Below, one piece after another: positions 7,577-13,846 of a stretch of 32,666 nucleotides of DNA (positions are counted from its first letter, which is position 1; the number at the start of each line of letters is the position of its first letter). The stretch comes from Halobacteriales archaeon QS_1_69_70 (GTDB taxonomy: Archaea > Halobacteriota > Halobacteria > Halobacteriales > Haloarculaceae). Position numbers and translations under genes: made by a program. Under the pieces are notes generated by a model. The model searched no databases. It saw only the letters and a program-made list of their open reading frames with translations, and was not told the DNA's origin. The stretch is from positions 1 to 32,666 of the forward strand of contig PXRI01000015.1 in assembly GCA_003021005.1 (NCBI GenBank), written 5' to 3'.

Positions 7577-7650
7577 GGGCCGATAGCTCAGTCAGGGAGA
7601 GCGACGGCCTCTTAAGCCGTCGGTCGGGGGTTCAAATCCCCCTCGGCCCG
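7577..7650 (+). tRNA. tRNA-Lys (anticodon CTT)
   Basis: A complete 74-nt cloverleaf can be drawn. Acceptor stem GGGCCGA pairs with TCGGCCC, with G as discriminator. D stem GCTC pairs with GAGC. Anticodon stem ACGGC pairs with GCCGT around loop CTCTTAA, giving anticodon CTT, which reads AAG. The variable loop is CGGTC. T stem GGGGG pairs with CCCCC around TTCAAAT. CCA is not encoded. The last 22 nt are repeated twice downstream, marking the gene as an integration target. Confidence 0.97.
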
Positions 7651-7717
7651 TGCAACGAGCCCGCGAGCGACGCGAACGGAGTGAGCGGAGCGAGCGGGTG
7701 AGTGAACCGGCAGAGGA

Positions 7718-7795
7718 GGATTTGAACCCTGGAAGACGCAGCGCCGAGCGGAGCGAGGCGACCGTCTTCCTCCGGTTCAAATCCCCCTCGGCCCG
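7718..7795 (+). repeat. tRNA-Lys tail cassette A (inverted T arm, GC loop, direct tRNA end)
   Basis: The cassette opens with GGATTTGAACC (7718-7728), the reverse complement of the T-arm sequence, and then TGGAAGAC. A GC-rich spacer gcgccgagcggagcgaggcg follows. It closes with GTCTTCC and a perfect 22-nt copy (7774-7795) of the tRNA-Lys 3' end 7629-7650. The two arms pair into a stem of 11 + 7 bp interrupted by a small mismatch. The direct copy could be an attachment-site remnant; the inverted arm is not explained by simple integration. Confidence 0.8.
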
Positions 7796-7876
7796 CTTCT
7801 GTGAGGAGCATTCGTCGAGCAGTGCCGAGCGGCAGCGAGGCCTGCTCGACACGGACGCGACGAACGAAGCGGTATG

Positions 7877-7966
7877 GGATTTGAACCCGACGAGTCGCAG
7901 CCCGGAACGGCGCGAAGCGCCGCACGCCCGGACCGTCTCGGCTCGGTTCAAATCCCCCTCGGCCCG
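7877..7966 (+). repeat. tRNA-Lys tail cassette B, joined to truncated hicA
   Basis: It has the same layout as cassette A: GGATTTGAACC at 7877-7887, a GC-rich middle including ggcgcgaagcgccgc, which is itself self-complementary, then ctcggctc and a perfect 22-nt copy of the tRNA-Lys 3' end at 7945-7966. The first base after this copy, 7967, is where coding similarity to HicA (read on the minus strand) begins. The cassette thus marks a recombination junction. Confidence 0.8.
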
Positions 7967-8156
7967 CTTTGTGGAGCGTACCGATGTCGAGACTATCGTG
8001 GCGGGGCACCGATACCGTCCGTGGCTCGGTGTCGTGATCTGCTGGCGGTTCCCACTTCAACACCATGTGGTCGCCACAAATTCGGTCGACGTAGTGGTTC
8101 CCCACATTGACGAGCACCTTCACAATATCGTCGCCAGAGAAATCCCGCGTTACCAT
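7967..8156 (-). pseudogene. hicA: hicA-like mRNA interferase toxin, 3'-truncated
   Basis: The frame begins MVTRDFSGDDIVKVLVNVGN and has GDHMVLKWEPP, with the catalytic-type His of HicA (GxH) kept, then TVSVPRHDSLDIGTLHK. Similarity to HicA stops there, after about 63 residues, exactly where the tRNA-Lys 3'-end copy begins. Haloarchaeal HicA proteins usually have some 20-25 further residues (IAEQAG...). The frame runs on through the tRNA-like DNA as AGRGGFEP and ends only at 7632, giving a 174-codon readthrough product. The gene starts 10 nt after the hicB stop, in the usual operon place. I infer that the toxin is inactive, but this is not certain because the catalytic His remains. Confidence 0.75.
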
Positions 8157-8166
8157 CGGCTGCTCA

Positions 8167-8442
8167 CTACTCGAGGATGTCCGGTAGCTCGCCCCGGCCA
8201 GGTTCGTTGTCTTCGGGATCAATCCCGATGTCGCGTAACTCCTCGTCGGTGGGTTCACGGCCGATGTCGCCCTTGTAGAGTGCGACGGCTTCATCGAGAT
8301 TTTCGAGTGCTGCCTGTCGGCTCTTACCTTGGGTTGTGACGCCGGTTTTCTCGTCCGTCGCCACCCACCATTCTTCGCCACGGACGAGCGTGATCGTGGT
8401 GCCGGTCGGAGGGTCCTGATTTGCGTGTGATCCGGTGCTCAT
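8167..8442 (-). CDS. hicB: HicB-family antitoxin
   Basis: The 91-residue protein starts MSTGSHANQDPPTGTTITLV and contains EEWWVATDEKTGVTTQGKSR followed by QAALENLDEAVALYKGD, the HicB partial RNase H-like fold in which substrate-like sequence is followed by a helix. HicB proteins bind and neutralise HicA. The gene sits between the HTH gene, whose stop it overlaps by 4 nt (ATGA), and the truncated hicA 10 nt downstream. The C-terminus (PTDEELRDIGIDPEDNEPG) is acidic and shows no DNA-binding motif, so repression of the operon may rest with the HTH partner. Confidence 0.85.
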   Translation of the reverse strand: MSTGSHANQDPPTGTTITLVRGEEWWVATDEKTGVTTQGKSRQAALENLDEAVALYKGDIGREPTDEELRDIGIDPEDNEPGRGELPDILE

Positions 8443-8681
8443 ACTGTGTTCTCCACGCCGGGACTCCACACAAGGGAGGTCCCGACCTTCTTTTTCGTCA
8501 CCTGTCCCGCGTCGGCCAGCTTTTCGAGCCGGTAATGTGCGTTCCGCCGGGCGATACCTACCGCCTCAGCCACCTCGGTTGTGGCTGCAGGTTCGTATTC
8601 TTGCACGGCTTCAAGAAACGCGTCGTTGGGGTATTTCGGCTCGAACCGCCCCGTCGCTGTATCACGATCCTGTTCAACCAT
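8439..8681 (-). CDS. Winged-helix DNA-binding protein, probable operon regulator
   Basis: This 80-aa protein has a compact helix-turn-helix: ATTEVAEAVGIARRNAHYRL then EKLADAGQVTKKKVGTSLVW, a typical winged-helix recognition helix and wing. The N-terminus has GRFEPKYPNDAFLEAV, seen in haloarchaeal regulators that accompany toxin-antitoxin genes. It is the first gene of a three-gene operon with hicB and the cut hicA, overlapping hicB by ATGA. The promoter must lie in 8682-8821, which is visibly AT-richer than the surroundings (gatatatta at about 8733). Autoregulation of the operon is an inference. Confidence 0.8.
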   Translation of the reverse strand: MVEQDRDTATGRFEPKYPNDAFLEAVQEYEPAATTEVAEAVGIARRNAHYRLEKLADAGQVTKKKVGTSLVWSPGVENTV

Positions 8682-8821
8682 GACCTATTCATAAGCGAAC
8701 CACGGCAGAAAGTGTTACGGTGTCCTCCAGAGGATACCGAAGATATATTACCGTTTCCTGTGTTGGCTATTGTAAGAACAGACACGTTCCTCAGGGCGCT
8801 TCTTATAAGAGCGACGCGAAT

Positions 8822-10300
8822 TCAGTTCTCGGGACTGTAGTTCGGCGCCTCGTCCGTAATCACCACGTCGTGGGCGTGGCTCTCCGTCTGGCCGGCCGCG
8901 GAGACGCGGACGAACTCGGAGATCTCCTGGAACTCGGGAACGGTCTCGGCGCCGACGTAGCCCATCCCGGACTGCATGCCGCCGACGAGCTGGTGGAGTT
9001 CCGAGGCGAGCGAGCCCGTGTAGGGTTTGGCGGCCTCGACGCCCTCCGGGACGAATTCCTCGCCGTCCTCGTCGTCCTTCAGGTAGCGGTCGCCGCCGCC
9101 GTCGTTCATGGCGCCGACCGAGCCCATGCCGCGGTACTGCTTGTACCGCTTGCCGTTCATGGTGATGACGCGGCCGGGGGCCTCGTCGGTGCCGGCGAAG
9201 TACGAGCCGAGCATGACGGCGTCGGCGCCGGCGGCGATCGCCTTGATGGCGTCGCCGGAGTACCGGATGCCGCCGTCGGCGATCACGGGGACGTCGTGGC
9301 GCCGGGCGACGTCGGCGACCTCCGCGACGGCCGTGATCTGCGGCATGCCGGATCCCGAGACCACCCGGGTCGTGCAGATGGAGCCGGGGCCGATGCCGAC
9401 CTTGATGCCGTCGGCGAACTCGACGATGGCCTCGGCGGCCTCCCGGGTGCCGACGTTGCCGACGACGACGTCGGCGTCGACCTCGGTGCGGATGTCGCGG
9501 GCGGCGTCGATGACGTCGAGGTTATGGGCGTGGGCGCAGTCGATGAACAGGACGTCGGCGCCGGCCGCGTCGGCCGCTCGGGCGCGCTCGGTCTCGAACG
9601 GCCCGACGGCCGCGGCGGCGATCAGCGCGCCGTCGTCGTCGCGGGCGGCGGCGTCGTACTCGCGCCGGGCGAGGACGCCCGCCATCGTGACGAGGCCGGT
9701 GAGACGGTCGTCGGCGTCGACGACGGGGACGCGCTCGATCTTGTGCTCGTACATCAGCTCCAGGGCCTCGCGGGCGGTGACGTCCTCGGCGGCGGTGATG
9801 ACCTCGTCGGTCATGGCCTCCCGGACCTCGTCGTGCTCGCCGACCTGGAGGTACGGCCGGATGTCGGTCCCGGAGATGATGCCGAGGACGGTGTCGTCGT
9901 CGGCCACGACGGGGGCGCCGGAGACGCCGGCGCGGTCCATCATGGCGTCGACGTCGCGGACCGTCTGGTCGGGGGCGGCGGTGACGACGTCGCGGATGAT
10001 GAGTTCGTCGGCGCGCTTGACCGCCTCGATCTGGTCGGTCATCGCCTCGACGCCCATGTTCCGGTGGAGGACGCCGAGGCCGCCCTGCCGGGCCATCTCG
10101 ATCGCCAGGTCGGCCTCGGTCACGGTGTCCATCGCTGCCGACACCACGGGGATGGTGAGCGTGACGTTCCGCGAGACCCGGGTCCGCATGTCGGCCTCGT
10201 CTGGTTCGACGCGGCTCTGCTTCGGCCGGAGCAGGACGTCGTCGAACGTCAGCGCCTCCGGGACGCGGAGTTTCTCCGAGAAGGGATCGTCTGTCGCCAT
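8822..10300 (-). CDS. guaB: Inosine-5'-monophosphate dehydrogenase
   Basis: IMP dehydrogenase converts IMP to XMP with NAD+, the committed step of GMP synthesis. The 492-aa protein has FDDVLLRPKQSRV at the N-terminus, PVVSAAMDTVTE, and two CBS domains in tandem at about residues 90-205. The catalytic loop GIGPGSICTTR contains the active-site Cys, followed by the phosphate-binding VIADGGIRYSGD, then the flap region RYKQYRGMGSVGAM. All key residues are present. The start at 10300 (MATDDPFSEKLRVPEALTFD) gives the normal N-terminus; the open frame continues upstream but loses coding character. It is transcribed alone and ends 141 nt before the hic operon start. Confidence 0.97.
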   Translation of the reverse strand: MATDDPFSEKLRVPEALTFDDVLLRPKQSRVEPDEADMRTRVSRNVTLTIPVVSAAMDTVTEADLAIEMARQGGLGVLHRNMGVEAMTDQIEAVKRADELIIRDVVTAAPDQTVRDVDAMMDRAGVSGAPVVADDDTVLGIISGTDIRPYLQVGEHDEVREAMTDEVITAAEDVTAREALELMYEHKIERVPVVDADDRLTGLVTMAGVLARREYDAAARDDDGALIAAAAVGPFETERARAADAAGADVLFIDCAHAHNLDVIDAARDIRTEVDADVVVGNVGTREAAEAIVEFADGIKVGIGPGSICTTRVVSGSGMPQITAVAEVADVARRHDVPVIADGGIRYSGDAIKAIAAGADAVMLGSYFAGTDEAPGRVITMNGKRYKQYRGMGSVGAMNDGGGDRYLKDDEDGEEFVPEGVEAAKPYTGSLASELHQLVGGMQSGMGYVGAETVPEFQEISEFVRVSAAGQTESHAHDVVITDEAPNYSPEN

Positions 10301-10494
10301 GTAAACCGTGGGACGGCCCCGCCCAAAAGCGTTGGGAGACCGCGACCGGCCGGGGCGGACGCGGCCGCGGTGATTCCGCCGGATCCCGGGCATTGAAGGG
10401 CGAGTCAGCCTATCTGGCGTGTCGAGACGTCTTTTCCCCGATCGACCACCGCACTCGGCAGCCGTCGGGGATGTGGGCACACCCCTCACGCAAT

Positions 10495-10502
10495 GCTTAT
10501 CC
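10495..10502 (+). promoter_or_regulatory. TATA-like box before the small ORF and DUF5794
   Basis: GCTTATCC lies 24-31 nt before the ATG at 10526. No comparable box lies before the DUF5794 start at 10718, so this promoter may serve both genes. Nothing else is supported in 10301-10525. Confidence 0.4.
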
Positions 10503-10525
10503 CCGCGTCGCCAATTATTTCATCC

Positions 10526-10714
10526 ATGGACTCCGCCAGTCCCACTGTAAAGCGCACCGCCGGACGAGTTCCCTCCGTCACCGGTGCCAAACTCACATTC
10601 TTCGGTGGGACGTACGAGGCGGAGACCCTCGCGACCCGACGGCGGGCCCGACGACGTGCCAGCGGCTGTCACGACCCGCACCACCGACCCCACGGTGAGG
10701 GCCCACTCGTCTGA
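10526..10714 (+). CDS. Small basic hypothetical protein, 62 aa
   Basis: The ORF starts MDSASPTVKRTAGRVPSVTG and ends with HDPHHRPHGEGPLV; in between is TLATRRRARRRASG. It is strongly basic, which is unusual for a haloarchaeal protein and would suit a nucleic-acid-binding peptide, but no known domain is seen. Support comes from context: a TATA-like box at the leaderless spacing, a stop 3 nt before the DUF5794 ATG, and no other promoter for DUF5794. It could instead be a leader region that is open by chance. Confidence 0.4.
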   Translation: MDSASPTVKRTAGRVPSVTGAKLTFFGGTYEAETLATRRRARRRASGCHDPHHRPHGEGPLV

Positions 10715-10717
10715 CGC

Positions 10718-11635
10718 ATGAGTGCATCCCGTCACCCGATCGCACTCCGGCTCGAGCGACAGGTCGGCGAGGGCACCCGGCTGCTCGCGACCGTCATGGC
10801 GCTGCCGCTCCTGGACGGCATCTTCGCCGCGCTGGTGCTGACCGGTGCCGTCTCGACCGTCACGGGGATGCTCGAGGTCGGCCTCCTCATCTTCGGCGGC
10901 AGCGCGACGCTCGCCGTCGTCCTCGCCGAGATGGAGGGCGGCCGCGCCGACCAGGTCAAGCGGGTGCTCCTGGTCGGCCTCCTGGTCGTCCCGCTCGCCG
11001 CACTCCAGGCGGCCGTCGCCCCGACGGTCGAATCCGTCCTCGCGATGGGCATCTTCGAGCGGTTCGCGGCACTCGTGATCGTTGCCGTCGCCGCGAAGAC
11101 CGCTAGCGCCTCCATCGGCGAGTACCTCCCGAGTCCCGGGGTCATCATCGGCCTCGGAATGGTCGGCAGCTTCAGACCTGGGGCCTTCGAGTTCGCCCTC
11201 GTTTCCGAGCCGATGTCCGTCGCGTACGGCACGGGGGCCGCGGCGGTCGGCGTCGCCTTCGCGCTGGCGGTCGCCGTCTTCGCGCCCTGGCTTCGCGGCA
11301 ACGTCGACGTCGACCGGTTCCGGTTCGGGAGCGCCGTCGCCCTCGGCGTCCTCCCGCTGACCATCCTCGGGCTCATCCCGTCTGAGGCGCCGCTCGCGCT
11401 CGCGGTCCTCGGAATCACCGCGCTGCTGGCGTTCGACCCCGACGGTCTCGACGAGGAGCGGACCCCGCTTGAGTCGGGCGACGAGTCTCGACCGGGGGCC
11501 GCTGGCGGGGGCGCCTCGACCGACGCCGGGGACGGCGTATCGCTCGAGGACGCAGACCCCATCGTCGACGGCGTCGGCCGGACCGAGGACGGCGCCCCGG
11601 GCGTTCCGGACGGCGATAGGGCACCGTGGCTCTGA
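10718..11635 (+). CDS. DUF5794 family membrane protein
   Basis: A 305-aa integral membrane protein beginning MSASRHPIALRLERQVGEGT. About seven hydrophobic helices follow between residues 25 and 245. The last 60 residues are an acidic, Gly/Asp-rich cytoplasmic-type tail (ESGDESRPGAAGGG, EDADPIVDGVGRTEDG). The opening HPIALRLERQVGEGTRLLAT is typical of DUF5794, a haloarchaeal family of unknown function. The gene is followed 44 nt later by DUF5795. No transporter or enzyme motif is visible. Confidence 0.85.
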   Translation: MSASRHPIALRLERQVGEGTRLLATVMALPLLDGIFAALVLTGAVSTVTGMLEVGLLIFGGSATLAVVLAEMEGGRADQVKRVLLVGLLVVPLAALQAAVAPTVESVLAMGIFERFAALVIVAVAAKTASASIGEYLPSPGVIIGLGMVGSFRPGAFEFALVSEPMSVAYGTGAAAVGVAFALAVAVFAPWLRGNVDVDRFRFGSAVALGVLPLTILGLIPSEAPLALAVLGITALLAFDPDGLDEERTPLESGDESRPGAAGGGASTDAGDGVSLEDADPIVDGVGRTEDGAPGVPDGDRAPWL

Positions 11636-11679
11636 CCGCGGCAGCAAAGCCTTAGGACCCTGGCCGCCCCCGCCTCGAT

Positions 11680-11904
11680 ATGGCCGACAACCGCGTCGTG
11701 GAGGGCCGGATGGTCACGCCCGAGAAGCTCGCCGAACTCGTCGAGGGCGACGGCGTGATGGACGCCGAAGCCATCGAGGACGCCGACCGCGACTGCCCCG
11801 ACTGCGGCGGCGACGTGCTCTCGGTCGGCTACATGCCGACGGTCACGGAGTTCGTCACCGGCTACAAGTGCCAGGACTGCGGCTGGCGCGAGACCGACCG
11901 CTAG
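11680..11904 (+). CDS. DUF5795 family zinc-ribbon protein
   Basis: At 74 aa it has MADNRVVEGRMVTPEKLAEL at the start and two CxxC knuckles, DCPDCGGDVLSVGYMP and YKCQDCGWRETDR, which should form one zinc ribbon. This is the haloarchaeal DUF5795 family; its function is unknown. The final TAG overlaps the stop codon of the convergent ferredoxin gene within a CTAG tetranucleotide, so there is no spacer between the two. Confidence 0.9.
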   Translation: MADNRVVEGRMVTPEKLAELVEGDGVMDAEAIEDADRDCPDCGGDVLSVGYMPTVTEFVTGYKCQDCGWRETDR

Positions 11905-12230
11905 TCCGGGAGGAGCTGCCCCCAGACCACCTTCTCGACGAGTTCGACGACCATCGGTTCCGTCACCCGGATCTGACAGGACAACCGGGGATAGCCCCAG
12001 CGGTCGGAGGCGGCGTCGTGCCACTGCTCGGGCTCCGGCGCGCCCTCGCGGATCCGGACGCCGCAGGTGCCACACAGGCCGCGGCCACCGCAGTTCGCGT
12101 ACCGCGAGACGGTGCCGTAGACGTCCAAGCCCGCCTCCAGGAGGGCGTCCCGGAGTAGGCCACCCTCCTCGACCTCTATCTCGGTCTCGGTGTCGTTCGC
12201 GAGGATGGTGACAGTGATCGGTTCGGCCAC
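11901..12230 (-). CDS. 2Fe-2S ferredoxin-like protein
   Basis: The 109-aa protein, starting at GTG 12230 (MAEPITVTILANDTETEIEV), has the beta-grasp ferredoxin fold. Its cluster ligands are in YANCGGRGLCGTCGVRI, with the fourth Cys in PRLSCQIRV. The spacing is CX5CX2CX28C, not the CX4CX2C of plant-type and halobacterial major ferredoxins. It is closer to the CGGxGxCGxC form seen in reductive activators and in electron-transfer domains of oxygenase reductases. It is a soluble electron carrier; its partner is unknown. It shares a divergent spacer with tRNA-Trp. Confidence 0.88.
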   Translation of the reverse strand: MAEPITVTILANDTETEIEVEEGGLLRDALLEAGLDVYGTVSRYANCGGRGLCGTCGVRIREGAPEPEQWHDAASDRWGYPRLSCQIRVTEPMVVELVEKVVWGQLLPD

Positions 12231-12277
12231 ATCGGCCCCTACGGCTTCCGGCGTGAAAGGGGGTCGGTCGAACCGTA

Positions 12278-12294
12278 ACCCCTTTGGGGCGACC
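12278..12294 (+). promoter_or_regulatory. tRNA-Trp promoter element
   Basis: ACCCCTTTGGGGCGACC, matching 15 of 17 bases of the element before tRNA-Lys, ends 18 nt before the tRNA-Trp start. The core CCCCTTTGGGG is an almost perfect palindrome here. Confidence 0.5.
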
Positions 12295-12312
12295 GGAAAT
12301 ACCAGCATGTGC

Positions 12313-12491
12313 GGGGACGTGGCCAAGCCAGGCATGGCGGCTGACTCCAGAGGCCACGCGCCCGGTGACGAGACTCCAGACTGATGTACCGAGCGGCCGA
12401 CTGATCATCGTCCGCGTTGACGACCCTCTGGAGGCCCGAGGCGCATACCGGAGACATCAGTAGATCGGGGGTTCAAATCCCTCCGTCCCCA
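12313..12491 (+). tRNA. tRNA-Trp (anticodon CCA) with a 105-nt intron
   Basis: Exons are 12313-12350 and 12456-12491, giving a 74-nt mature tRNA. Acceptor GGGGACG pairs with CGTCCCC, discriminator A. D stem GCCA/TGGC. Anticodon stem GCTGA/TCAGT with CCA at 12347-12349. T stem GGGGG/CCCTC around TTCAAAT. The intron (12351-12455) follows position 37. A canonical bulge-helix-bulge is present: central helix CTCC (12345-12348) with GGAG (12450-12453), and 3-nt bulges AGA and ACA cut after their second base. Inside the intron CCTCTGGAG complements the anticodon-loop CTCCAGAGG, as in the known haloarchaeal tRNA-Trp introns that act as C/D-box methylation guides. Confidence 0.96.
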
Positions 12492-12534
12492 CTACGAACC
12501 CGCGAGCGCTGCGAGCGGGATTTGACGCGGACGA

Positions 12535-12612
12535 GGGATTTGCATCAGGGCAGTCGCAGCGCGAACGGAGTGAGCGACCGTCTGCCCGTGGTTCACAATC
12601 CCTCCGTCCCCA
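12535..12612 (+). repeat. tRNA-Trp tail cassette A
   Basis: GGGATTTGCATCAGGGCAG (from 12535) faces CTGCCCGTGGTTCACAATCC; the arms pair imperfectly. The loop is gcagcgcgaacggagtgagc. The right arm runs into ATCCCTCCGTCCCCA at 12598-12612, an exact copy of the last 15 nt of tRNA-Trp (12477-12491). The layout matches the tRNA-Lys cassettes, with the tail of the local tRNA in place. 12613-12741 is an AT-richer stretch with no supported gene. Confidence 0.7.
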
Positions 12613-12741
12613 TACCGAGCATAAACCTTTCTCAGGGCTTTATACGTCCGATCACTCGAGGTTTTGGAGGTGGTTCACATGCGCGCTGAAGCCAAACCTA
12701 TCACATCTACTGATATACGTGTGCTGGCGACCTCCCCGACC

Positions 12742-13164
12742 TCAGTCCGCGCTGGCGGGGGACTCATCAGTGGGCGTCTCGTCGACAAGCGGGTAGTCGA
12801 TCTGCATCTCGATCCGGTCGAACGGGATATCGGGTTGCATCGCCCCGCCGGGACCACCTTGTTCGAAATCGAGGATGCCCAGAACCTCCAACCGCTTCAG
12901 GTCGGAGTGGACATCCGAGACATCGCGGTCGACGAGGCGGGAAACCTCGCGAATGCTCTTGGGGTCGTGTTCGGCAATCGCTCCGAGCAGGTCCAGCCGC
13001 AGGGGCGTGAGAACGTCGACGAGGTCGTCGTAGGACCCGAACTGCAGAACCGCTTTCTGGTCGCTCTCGGTAAGGTCGCCGGCGTCGCCCGCCTGGACGA
13101 ACTGCAGGGCGTCCTCGCGAAGCTGTTCTCGGTCTCCGACGGTGATGTGGAGTGTCGTGGTCAT
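12742..13164 (-). CDS. HVO_A0114-type winged-helix protein, probable TumE antitoxin
   Basis: A 140-aa protein starting MTTTLHITVGDREQLREDAL. The middle has the HTH RLDLLGAIAEHDPKSIREVS, RLVDRDVSDVHSDLKRLEVL (recognition helix) and a wing GILDFEQGGPGGA. The layout fits the haloarchaeal HVO_A0114 family of putative DNA-binding proteins. It follows the TumE toxin gene by 18 nt, so the order is toxin then antitoxin. I infer that it neutralises TumE and represses the shared promoter at 13505-13551. The C-terminus ends in an acidic tail (VDETPTDESPASAD). Confidence 0.82.
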   Translation of the reverse strand: MTTTLHITVGDREQLREDALQFVQAGDAGDLTESDQKAVLQFGSYDDLVDVLTPLRLDLLGAIAEHDPKSIREVSRLVDRDVSDVHSDLKRLEVLGILDFEQGGPGGAMQPDIPFDRIEMQIDYPLVDETPTDESPASAD

Positions 13165-13182
13165 GGGTAGTGGTGTGGGTGG

Positions 13183-13497
13183 TCAGTATGGGCGCGGCGG
13201 GTCGCCGCCGACAGCGTCCCAGTACTCATCTGCGCTTGCCCAGAAATCCGCGAGGACCGCTTCCGTTCCGGGGAACTCGACGTCGACGTCGCCCGCCGCA
13301 GTGTGGAACTCGTGGCCTTTTGTGTCTTCGTGTGAGTTGTCGTAGCGGAGCAGTGTGAGGCCCTCCAGGGTGCCCAGGTGGAGTCGGTACTTCCAACCCG
13401 ACGGATAGCTGTCGGTGTCTGCGATCTGTTGGACCATTACGTTCTCCACGAGGCTCGCTTCGTAGTACGTGTACTGGTAGGTGAGGCCCTGGGCCAT
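13183..13497 (-). CDS. TumE-family toxin of a toxin-antitoxin pair
   Basis: This 104-aa protein has the signature of the TumE/DUF6516-type family: YRLHLGTLEGLTLLRYDNSH then EDTKGHEFHTAAG and VEFPG, with a C-terminal FWASADEYW helix. The LLRYDNxHxDTKGHExH block is the conserved core and holds the likely catalytic or nucleic-acid-binding His residues. The start at 13497 (MAQGLTYQYTYYEASLVENV) lies 27-35 nt after a TATA-like CTTATGATG placed inside a palindrome. It is followed by its HTH partner. Toxic activity is inferred from the family; the reading frame is intact. Confidence 0.83.
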   Translation of the reverse strand: MAQGLTYQYTYYEASLVENVMVQQIADTDSYPSGWKYRLHLGTLEGLTLLRYDNSHEDTKGHEFHTAAGDVDVEFPGTEAVLADFWASADEYWDAVGGDPPRPY

Positions 13498-13504
13498 CCC
13501 TGTA

Positions 13505-13551
13505 TGTTGGTAATAGCCCCAACATCATAAGTGTTGGGGAACAGGCCAACA
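13505..13551 (-). promoter_or_regulatory. Promoter and four-half-site operator of the TumE pair
   Basis: Four half-sites alternate in orientation at nearly equal steps: TGTTGG 13505-13510, CCAACA 13519-13524, TGTTGG 13532-13537, CCAACA 13546-13551 (steps 14, 13, 14). The central pair extends to CCCCAACA-7 nt-TGTTGGGG (13517-13539). The TATA-like CTTATGATG (minus strand, 13523-13531) lies across its spacer. A dimeric repressor bound here would block TBP, so autoregulation is likely. Confidence 0.65.
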
Positions 13552-13717
13552 CCAAAAGAGCAACCAGGCACCGGCGTCTGATCCGTAGCAGAACCTCCGG
13601 CGAGCAAGGGGTCGTTCGCGAACCACGGCGGGGCGTCTAGCCTTCATGAGTCGTGGATGTCCCTCCGTCCCCACTACGAACCCGCGAGCCCTGCGAGCGG
13701 GGTTCGGAGCGTTCGGA

Positions 13718-13804
13718 GGATTTGAACCCTGCCAGAGGCAGCCCGGACAGCGAACGCAGTGAGCGAGCAGGACCCTCTGGCTTCGGTTCACCATCCCTCC
13801 GTCC
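13718..13804 (+). repeat. tRNA-Trp tail cassette B
   Basis: GGATTTGAACCCTGCCAGAG at 13718-13737 pairs with CTCTGGCTTCGGTTCACCAT near 13775-13794 around a loop that includes agcgaacgcagtgagcgag. The right arm ends in ATCCCTCCGTCC (13793-13804), a shortened copy of the tRNA-Trp end. It follows the right-hand 42-bp repeat directly, as cassette A follows the tRNA. No gene is supported in 13552-13846. Confidence 0.7.
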
Positions 13805-13846
13805 ACCTACTCGACGCTGCGTTCGATTCTTTCGCTGATTGCTGCG

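Follow-up and report, generated by a model that had tools for sequence, protein, structure and literature searches.

Two hairpin arrays in the window

The DNA examined here is a 32,666-nucleotide (nt) stretch of Halobacteriales archaeon QS_1_69_70, referred to as the window, which is part of contig C15 (PXRI01000015.1) of a 2.45 Mb assembly that is 82% complete (genome G000). It carries two arrays of short hairpin units, each behind a tRNA gene. The first gene encodes tRNA-Lys(CTT). The second is an intron-containing tRNA gene at 12313-12491, which we take to be the usual haloarchaeal tRNA-Trp; ARAGORN reported only the Lys gene in the window and did not detect this one. Four cassettes following the two genes (7718-7795, 7877-7966, 12535-12612 and 13718-13804) had been noted in a preliminary description, and all four are present. 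Their anatomy as described there, an inverted tRNA T arm, a paired inner stem and a copy of the tRNA end, holds for the hairpin here termed H2, to which is added a second hairpin region, H1, lying in each unit between the preceding tRNA end and H2. The GC-rich loop gcgaacggagtgagc ascribed to every cassette does occur, merely as one among several loop types. The features are listed below, with z values from folding against shuffles and R1 denoting a covariance model of H2.

7577..7650, + strand: tRNA-Lys(CTT) gene, leader-side end of array 1 (ARAGORN; Rfam RF00005, 71.2 bits)
7651..7717, + strand: H1 region of unit 1, from the tRNA end to the inverted T arm (fold of 7652-7720, z 0.27)
7718..7784, + strand: H2 of unit 1, with inner stem GGAAGACG/CGTCTTCC and loop between the inverted and the direct T arm (z -3.88; R1 E 1.7e-15)
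7774..7795, + strand: exact direct copy of the final 22 nt of tRNA-Lys
7796..7876, + strand: H1 region of unit 2 (fold z -1.21)
7877..7955, + strand: H2 hairpin of unit 2 (z -2.48; R1 E 1.5e-12)
7945..7966, + strand: second direct copy of the final 22 nt of tRNA-Lys, identical
12313..12491, + strand: intron-containing tRNA gene, leader-side end of array 2 (Rfam RF00005, 46.8 bits)
12492..12535, + strand: H1-like sequence of the first Trp unit, the first part of which recurs at 13673 (direct repeat D2, 80% over 89 nt)
12536..12601, + strand: H2 hairpin with degraded arms, first Trp unit (z -2.48)
12602..12612, + strand: Trp tRNA 3' end copy CTCCGTCCCCA
12742..13164, - strand: helix-turn-helix (HTH) protein of the HVO_A0114 family (PF25212, E 5.3e-26)
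13183..13497, - strand: TumE toxin-family protein (PF20126, E 5.5e-12)
13660..13672, + strand: partial copy of the tRNA end, TCCCTCCGTCCCC, bounding the two-gene insert on the right (direct repeat D2)
13673..13717, + strand: H1-like region of the last Trp unit (direct repeat D2)
13718..13796, + strand: H2 hairpin of the last Trp unit (z -1.97; R1 E 1.4e-11, outside the training set)
13797..13807, + strand: degraded Trp tRNA 3' end copy CTCCGTCCACC

Folded as DNA against dinucleotide shuffles, all four H2 hairpins gave the negative z values listed, and with a z of -1.97 the hairpin at 13718-13796 taken alone is marginal. The two H1 regions of the Lys array did not fold significantly above shuffles. 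The R1 model was built from 61 hairpins of many species, both Lys H2 hairpins (7718-7784 and 7877-7955) among them, so that their R1 matches are not independent. Both Lys units are intact and both Trp cassettes are degraded, each having an extra base in the T loop (GGTTCACAATCC and GGTTCACCATCC) and the first also a left arm reading GGATTTGCATC.

Covarying stems and copied tRNA ends

Each H2 hairpin opens with an inverted T arm (of GGATTTGAACC type). Two unpaired bases separate this arm from an inner stem of roughly 8 bp, which is closed by a variable loop; on the return side three unpaired bases lie between the stem and a direct T arm (GGTTCAAATCC), and the local tRNA 3' end comes next. Covariation of the inner stem had been set beforehand as a test of this structure, and the stems do covary. 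In an alignment of 61 hairpins, 88 cells were changed on both sides compared to 30.2 ± 4.5 after shuffling, a value reached in none of 500 shuffles, and the covariation score was 0.212 against 0.079; these p-values and shuffle counts are overstated, since related sequences are not independent. Once partner columns were shifted, paired cells dropped from 91.7% to 21.7-56.3%, and across 103 hairpins the two most variable pairs show G-C, C-G, A-T and T-A forms between them. The alignment consisted of 67 hairpins minus six dropped by hand as oddly formed, and the full 103 pair alike. The pattern by which the hairpins were collected fixed columns 17-18 and parts of the 3' arm, rendering those columns uninformative, and left the 5' bases of columns 14-16 and 19-21 unconstrained. 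A T.T mismatch occupies one position in 76 of the 103 hairpins (the 5' T free, the 3' T fixed by the collecting pattern) and the internal loops are unequal, evidence against one arm merely having been copied onto the other.

The direct copy is tied to the neighboring tRNA. Among 138 hairpin units collected with no condition on the tail, 135 were scored over the 11 nt that follow the T arm: 93 agreed with the upstream tRNA throughout and 112 did so at nine or more positions, with a mean identity of 0.89 to the upstream tRNA compared to 0.43 to other tRNAs. In 170 first units the identity of the copy was 0.94-1.00 across G53-N73. Its 3' border is sharp, the identity dropping from 0.95 to 0.61 (null 0.51) one base past N73, and two bases upstream of G53 it stood at 0.39 (null 0.25), giving a duplicated block of 21-22 nt. 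Because the T arm is largely universal, the informative positions are mainly +4 and +10 to +20, of which the latter are inflated by selection, with the block borders unaffected. A larger set of 259 units required a tail match of at least 8/11 and a spacer below 420 nt, which inflates tail identity there; it includes a few false units from bacterial tRNA clusters (e.g. L088), and L032 Asn and L201 are doubtful. Perfect tails were counted in 136 of 175 first units, 40 of 61 second units and 10 of 23 units further out. A direct repeat reaching past the tRNA end was also considered and not retained as a general feature, being seen in about a tenth of units (score of at least 20 in 10.4% vs 0.4%).

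The inverted arm is local as well. Located by best fit to the local or consensus T arm, it complements the local base at 42 of the 45 sites of difference between the local T arm and the consensus. Behind orthologous tRNA-Leu genes, inverted arms are mostly of TTCGAA type in congeners with GGTTCGAATCC and mostly of TTTGAA type in those with GGTTCAAATCC, with exceptions in L185, L189, L200 and the second unit of L184.

In H1 the arms pair better inside their own unit than across units (14.47 vs 10.62, standard deviation 2.66), and the motif GA[AG]C...CG[TC]GAG was present in 65 of 174 H1 regions compared to 0.6% of shuffles. The spacing between the H1 3' arm and the inverted T arm tends to match the tail length, the two offsets differing by 7-11 nt in 115 of the 174; the corresponding correlation of 0.67 is inflated, as only the 152 units with a difference of 0-20 entered it. 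An inverted tRNA tail copied in full ahead of H2 gave a weak signal (mean score 8.60 vs 7.75 ± 0.11 permuted), clearly above background in the first three positions and near background past the first three or four, and no full triplication is therefore claimed. At five tRNA-Ser(gga) loci H2 and the tail are conserved and H1 has diverged.

Distribution, array variation and neighboring elements

Scanning genome contigs for nothing more than an inverted T arm followed 35-65 nt later by a T arm returned at least 117 stretches, a set selected for hairpin presence. Judged from titles, 64 of 80 among the matches listed belong to Halobacteria or similar halophilic archaea, and several others are tRNA coincidences. 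With R1, matches were found in 139 of 145 genomes of the class, so the cassettes are not random remnants of one strain, the outcome that the preliminary description had named as fatal to its proposal. In a sample of the phylum, 31 of 196 genomes matched, every one from the same order or nearer; kinship is given for 20 of the 165 non-matching genomes, two of the same order and 18 of the same phylum only. Both searches used stricter filters. The class genomes with no R1 match (G050, G033, G070, G082, G036 and G032) may be helpful in a search for the enzyme.

In three complete genomes, 88 of 95 R1 matches follow a tRNA gene of the same strand at a distance of no more than 1 kb, compared to at most 1% by chance, and 66 of 124 tRNA genes have at least one hairpin. 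The orientation was the same as that of the tRNA in all 88 cases and opposite in none, unlike inverted double-stranded sites, which should permit flipping. G000 itself has 27 R1 matches. Beyond the window its units follow the genes for tRNA-Arg(tcg), Gly(gcc), Asp, Ala(ggc) and Leu(tag) and an intron-bearing tRNA gene with anticodon cat, in arrays of two or three units with degraded ones counted. For Val(gac), Arg(ccg), Glu, Thr(ggt) and Thr(cgt), the 500 nt or so downstream of the gene contained no unit.

Arrays differ at one and the same gene. Behind the orthologous tRNA-Lys of 18 genomes of the genus, G000 included, there are none to two units; at one such locus (L161) no unit lies in the 620 nt behind the gene, and single-unit arrays can carry different H2 types. 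The first Lys unit of G000 is absent at that place in its closest relative, G014, which is 97% identical over the tRNA and upstream flank and in which part of the array is masked. Conversely, H2 modules 93-97% identical over 58-71 nt stand behind different tRNAs in different genomes (Leu/Lys, Ile/Phe and Asp/Gly, among others), with H1 diverged and each tail matching its own local tRNA; one pair, behind Glu and Ile, shares 88.5% identity over 96 nt. The evidence that the units may move is this comparative presence and absence. Behind one tRNA-Leu (L199) the units follow the order A, B, A with two apparently identical A units, as might be seen after unequal crossing-over or re-insertion.

The seven R1 matches far from a tRNA gene include three that were read closely (L273 Val, L275 Thr and L274 Tyr), whose hairpins look like old units severed from the tRNA by elements of about 9, 11 and 18 kb. 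In two of the three a Pfam-confirmed tyrosine recombinase adjoins the array, and the third has one at the same place in a survey of tyrosine recombinase domains. Five of the seven tRNA-distant hairpins have a tyrosine recombinase gene no more than about 1.1 kb away. Such domains were present in 23 of 23 genomes, five of these having no R1 match. In G000, PF00589 gave five matches, on contigs C8, C26 and C40, and none on C15, in an assembly of 82% completeness. No integrase lies inside the units found; the spacers, 57-207 nt at quantiles of the 259 units, are too short for one, and since the unit search stopped at 420 nt, longer gene-carrying units would have been missed.

Several further observations concern genes near the arrays and related hairpins. 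In the window the TumE gene and its HVO_A0114-family neighbor (12742-13497), the latter a probable antitoxin partner, are flanked by two copies of the tRNA-Trp end and resemble a gene-carrying cassette. Small genes (DUF7387, HTH) lie beyond the Lys array at 7967-8681 and in L155, and the sequence adjoining the last Lys tail resembles, by eye, a truncated HicA-type gene when set against G014. A Woesearchaeota contig (L061, 6240-6460) has behind tRNA-Ser(cga) an inverted T arm, an unrelated inner hairpin, a T arm and an exact tail. A second kind of unit stands behind tRNAs in L035 (about 1640-1730, Ala) and L033 (about 1690-1770, Gly), in which two direct tails flank an inverted copy, exact or nearly so, of the 11-nt acceptor tail instead of the T arm.

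A possible folded attachment site and its alternatives

Comparison across genomes demonstrates the distribution, the duplicated block, the local arms and tails, the covariation, the single orientation, the sharing of modules and the differing arrays, and accretion of a mobile hairpin at tRNA 3' ends is well supported. By analogy with known folded sites, a strand-selective site would be the best fit to pairing conserved without sequence, to the mismatch, to the single orientation and to the T-arm target. We tentatively favor, as plausible though short of probable, a non-autonomous element at tRNA 3' ends in which H2 is a strand-specific folded attachment site served by a tyrosine recombinase supplied in trans. 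DNA folding, the class of recombinase, its supply in trans, the way in which arms and tail become local, and the transport of cargo are steps that we infer. Each cassette (tRNA end, H1, H2, tRNA end) would be a small element accreting beside the tRNA genes of Halobacteria, and H2 would be active when folded on the tRNA-sense strand, its stem of inverted and direct T arms a double-stranded mimic of the tRNA T arm. The recombinase would pair this stem with the T arm of a tRNA gene, exchanging strands in or near GGTTC, and replication would resolve the junction, thereby linking H2 to the local tRNA tail. The tRNA would survive insertion because nucleotides at about 53-73 are present twice. New units would enter on the tRNA side and displace older ones outward as their tails decay, and some cassettes, such as that of the TumE pair, may transport genes.

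The two interpretations offered in the preliminary description are partly supported by these results. That of a mobile hairpin taking over tRNA ends agrees with modules common to different tRNAs, with local tails and inverted arms and with arrays varying among congeners, the movement being read from comparison. That of a single-stranded-DNA recombination site agrees with the covarying stems, the mismatch, the internal loops and the one orientation of 88 out of 88; its mechanism we infer, and a function at the RNA level is its rival.

A number of results weigh against a folded site served by a recombinase. Simple site-specific recombination alone would leave a cassette without the tail of its new tRNA; the local arms and tail would be explained by an exchange at each of the two arms or by synthesis primed on the target T arm. 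Two of the five measures of covariation were weaker, pairs changed on both sides numbering 6 against 4.4 in shuffles (the value reached in 38 of 500) and further pair types 18 against 15.3 (18 of 500). In the three tRNA-integrated elements (L273, L274 and L275) no recombinase is linked to H2: the integrase-side copies of the tRNA end, some 13 nt only in L274, precede H1 and have no H2, which suggests that at these loci the integrases share the tRNAs while H2 lies outside their att sites. The ends of integron attC sites follow the consensus GTTRRRY / RYYYAAC, of which the H2 ends GGTTCAAATCC / GGATTTGAACC share GTT and AAC and no more. As attP of known viruses or plasmids, H2 had no convincing match: one 131-base query found no H2 in phage records, one 144-base query of plasmids gave four weak matches that all fell short of 80% coverage, and the 11 viral contigs retrieved by pattern include none of haloarchaeal appearance. 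Lastly, with RNA parameters the sense strand of H2 is more stable, by an excess over shuffles of -2.17 kcal/mol (140 sequences), and DNA parameters, applied with no shuffle control, show no such advantage, a difference that leans to RNA.

Outside archaea, and in favor of the folded-site reading, two viral contigs (L296 and L298) have an inverted/direct T-arm hairpin that by eye adjoins a tyrosine-recombinase-like gene. They may be taken for Bifidobacterium prophages at a tRNA-Met end, because the Bifidobacterium contigs L049 and L051 carry nearly the same hairpin and because prophages in tRNA-Met with a 39-bp core have been reported (PMC6109161, the portion considered here making no mention of the hairpin). 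The same near-identical long inverted repeat, T arm plus its inverse, is found in L296, L298, L293, L295, L049 and L051.

The result with RNA parameters introduces the rival that survives best, in our judgment unlikely: H1 and H2 would be structured RNA from the tRNA 3' trailer, its fold selected and its copies spread through unequal crossing-over together with gene conversion involving the tRNA gene. Stem covariation and the constant use of the tRNA strand near tRNAs are consistent with this, as are the sense-strand excesses, that of H1 being -1.60 kcal/mol with RNA parameters (140 sequences) and -0.36 with DNA parameters, the latter taken with no shuffle control. A G.U pair occupies one arm position in 27 of 103 hairpins, although at the remaining positions G.U and A.C are about equally frequent (21 and 20 cells), and runs of T that could stop transcription before H2 are few (T5 or longer in 8 of 220). 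Against a selected RNA stand the variable presence and number of units at one orthologous tRNA within a genus, the near-identical modules behind unrelated tRNAs, which require transfer between loci, the equality of the H2 strands by DNA parameters and the lack of a fitting Rfam family. At the gathering score Rfam yields only tRNA in the window, and in a search to an E value of 1 at six other loci it yields, besides tRNAs, just two weak hits (E 0.3 and 0.62) that overlap these.

We consider it improbable that a transposase made a staggered cut at about tRNA nucleotides 53-73, duplicating 21-22 bp in the manner of Cas1 around an element composed of H1 and H2. The sharp block of 21-22 nt would suit such a cut, although site-specific recombination predicts the same footprint; the better tails on the tRNA side and the mostly local tail (93 of 135 perfect) are also consistent with it. 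The element starts are varied, the commonest (CTTC) accounting for 45 of 259, and the inverted local T arm is left without a reason. Neither Cas1 nor a Y1 transposase is supported as a necessary enzyme of the present day, Cas1 being absent from 9 of 18 hairpin-rich genomes and the Y1 transposase present in 14 and absent from 4; these gaps remove only a present-day need, and activity in the past is possible.

Equally improbable to us are functionless att relics, that is, footprints of proviruses or integrative plasmids, or att-flanked deletion products from accretion like that of cis-mobilizable elements (CIME). The copies of tRNA ends, the elements with tyrosine recombinases that sit between tRNA and array in L273, L274 and L275, and the five tRNA-distant hairpins close to such genes would all be expected, but the tRNA-end copies of those elements have no H2, and covarying stems, local inverted arms and a single orientation are not expected of mere relics. 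Template switching, in which fold-back synthesis and the 11-nt microhomology of the T arm build direct and inverted tRNA-end copies around a shared inner hairpin, would explain the local inverted arm and the spacing of H1 that follows tail length (115 of 174), yet is very improbable given an inverted tail near background past its first few positions, conserved loops and a T.T mismatch that point to selection, and confinement to one order in the phylum sample.

The folded-site reading invites comparison with integrons. Like arrays of attC sites, the units are imperfect palindromes with conserved ends, an inner stem that varies yet stays paired, internal loops, mismatches and one orientation, arranged in tandem with younger-looking units at one end, and once with toxin-antitoxin-like genes between them. 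Unlike integrons, they have no identified IntI and no attI, their arrays start at many tRNA genes, their arms copy the local tRNA, and those found (within the 420-nt limit) are short and mostly gene-free. In the attP of the filamentous phage CTXphi, which targets dif, a recombination site is present as two inverted copies that fold into a hairpin on one strand. H2 resembles it in having two inverted site copies folded on one strand and differs in that the target is a tRNA and no phage is known for it.

For attC, an unpaired central spacer, extrahelical bases and a variable terminal structure are described as setting strand choice, with resolution by replication (PMC8946536, in the part drawn on here). 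Integrative elements targeting tRNAs and att-flanked accretion (ICE/CIME), including elements of haloarchaeal SNJ2-type and other integrases as portrayed in an excerpt of PMC8371274, share tandem copies of the tRNA 3' end and insertion on the tRNA side; the units differ in having no integrase, a hairpin common to different tRNAs and an inverted local T arm. Casposons, as far as the relevant portion of PMC4046053 describes them, also insert at tRNA 3' ends with target duplication, but the units found are gene-free except in the window, no shared terminal inverted repeats were noticed in them, and half of the hairpin-rich genomes have no Cas1. The Haloquadratum miniature inverted-repeat transposable elements (MITEs) and the elements named PATEs and SMRs are likewise small and free of a transposase, most with terminal repeats or palindromes, and no tie to tRNA genes or tRNA-end copies appears in the section of PMC3119063 consulted. 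Elements of the IS200/IS605 or PATE kind make no target duplication, whereas the hairpin units end in a tRNA-end copy. Judged by title and start of abstract, the open-access papers returned by literature searches included no description of the units; most subscription papers and all bioRxiv preprints fall outside that scope.

Somewhat more guardedly, it is possible that the units constitute a new class of mobile DNA, namely a hairpin devoid of genes that would recognize tRNA genes via a folded copy of their T arm and move between many tRNAs across an archaeal class, gaining at each landing inverted and direct copies of the host tRNA end with the tRNA preserved. Such units would be an archaeal counterpart of the integron cassette with any tRNA gene as the point of entry. 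If the folded-site reading is true, folded single-strand recombination sites tied to the T arm would exist genome-wide in archaea, which would bear on why mobile DNA favors tRNA genes, and the H2 hairpin (about 60-90 nt) offers a concrete substrate for finding the enzyme. If instead the RNA reading is true, the units would represent a large, unnoticed family of tRNA-trailer RNAs. They accompany 66 of the 124 tRNA genes in three complete haloarchaeal genomes, yet match no Rfam family.

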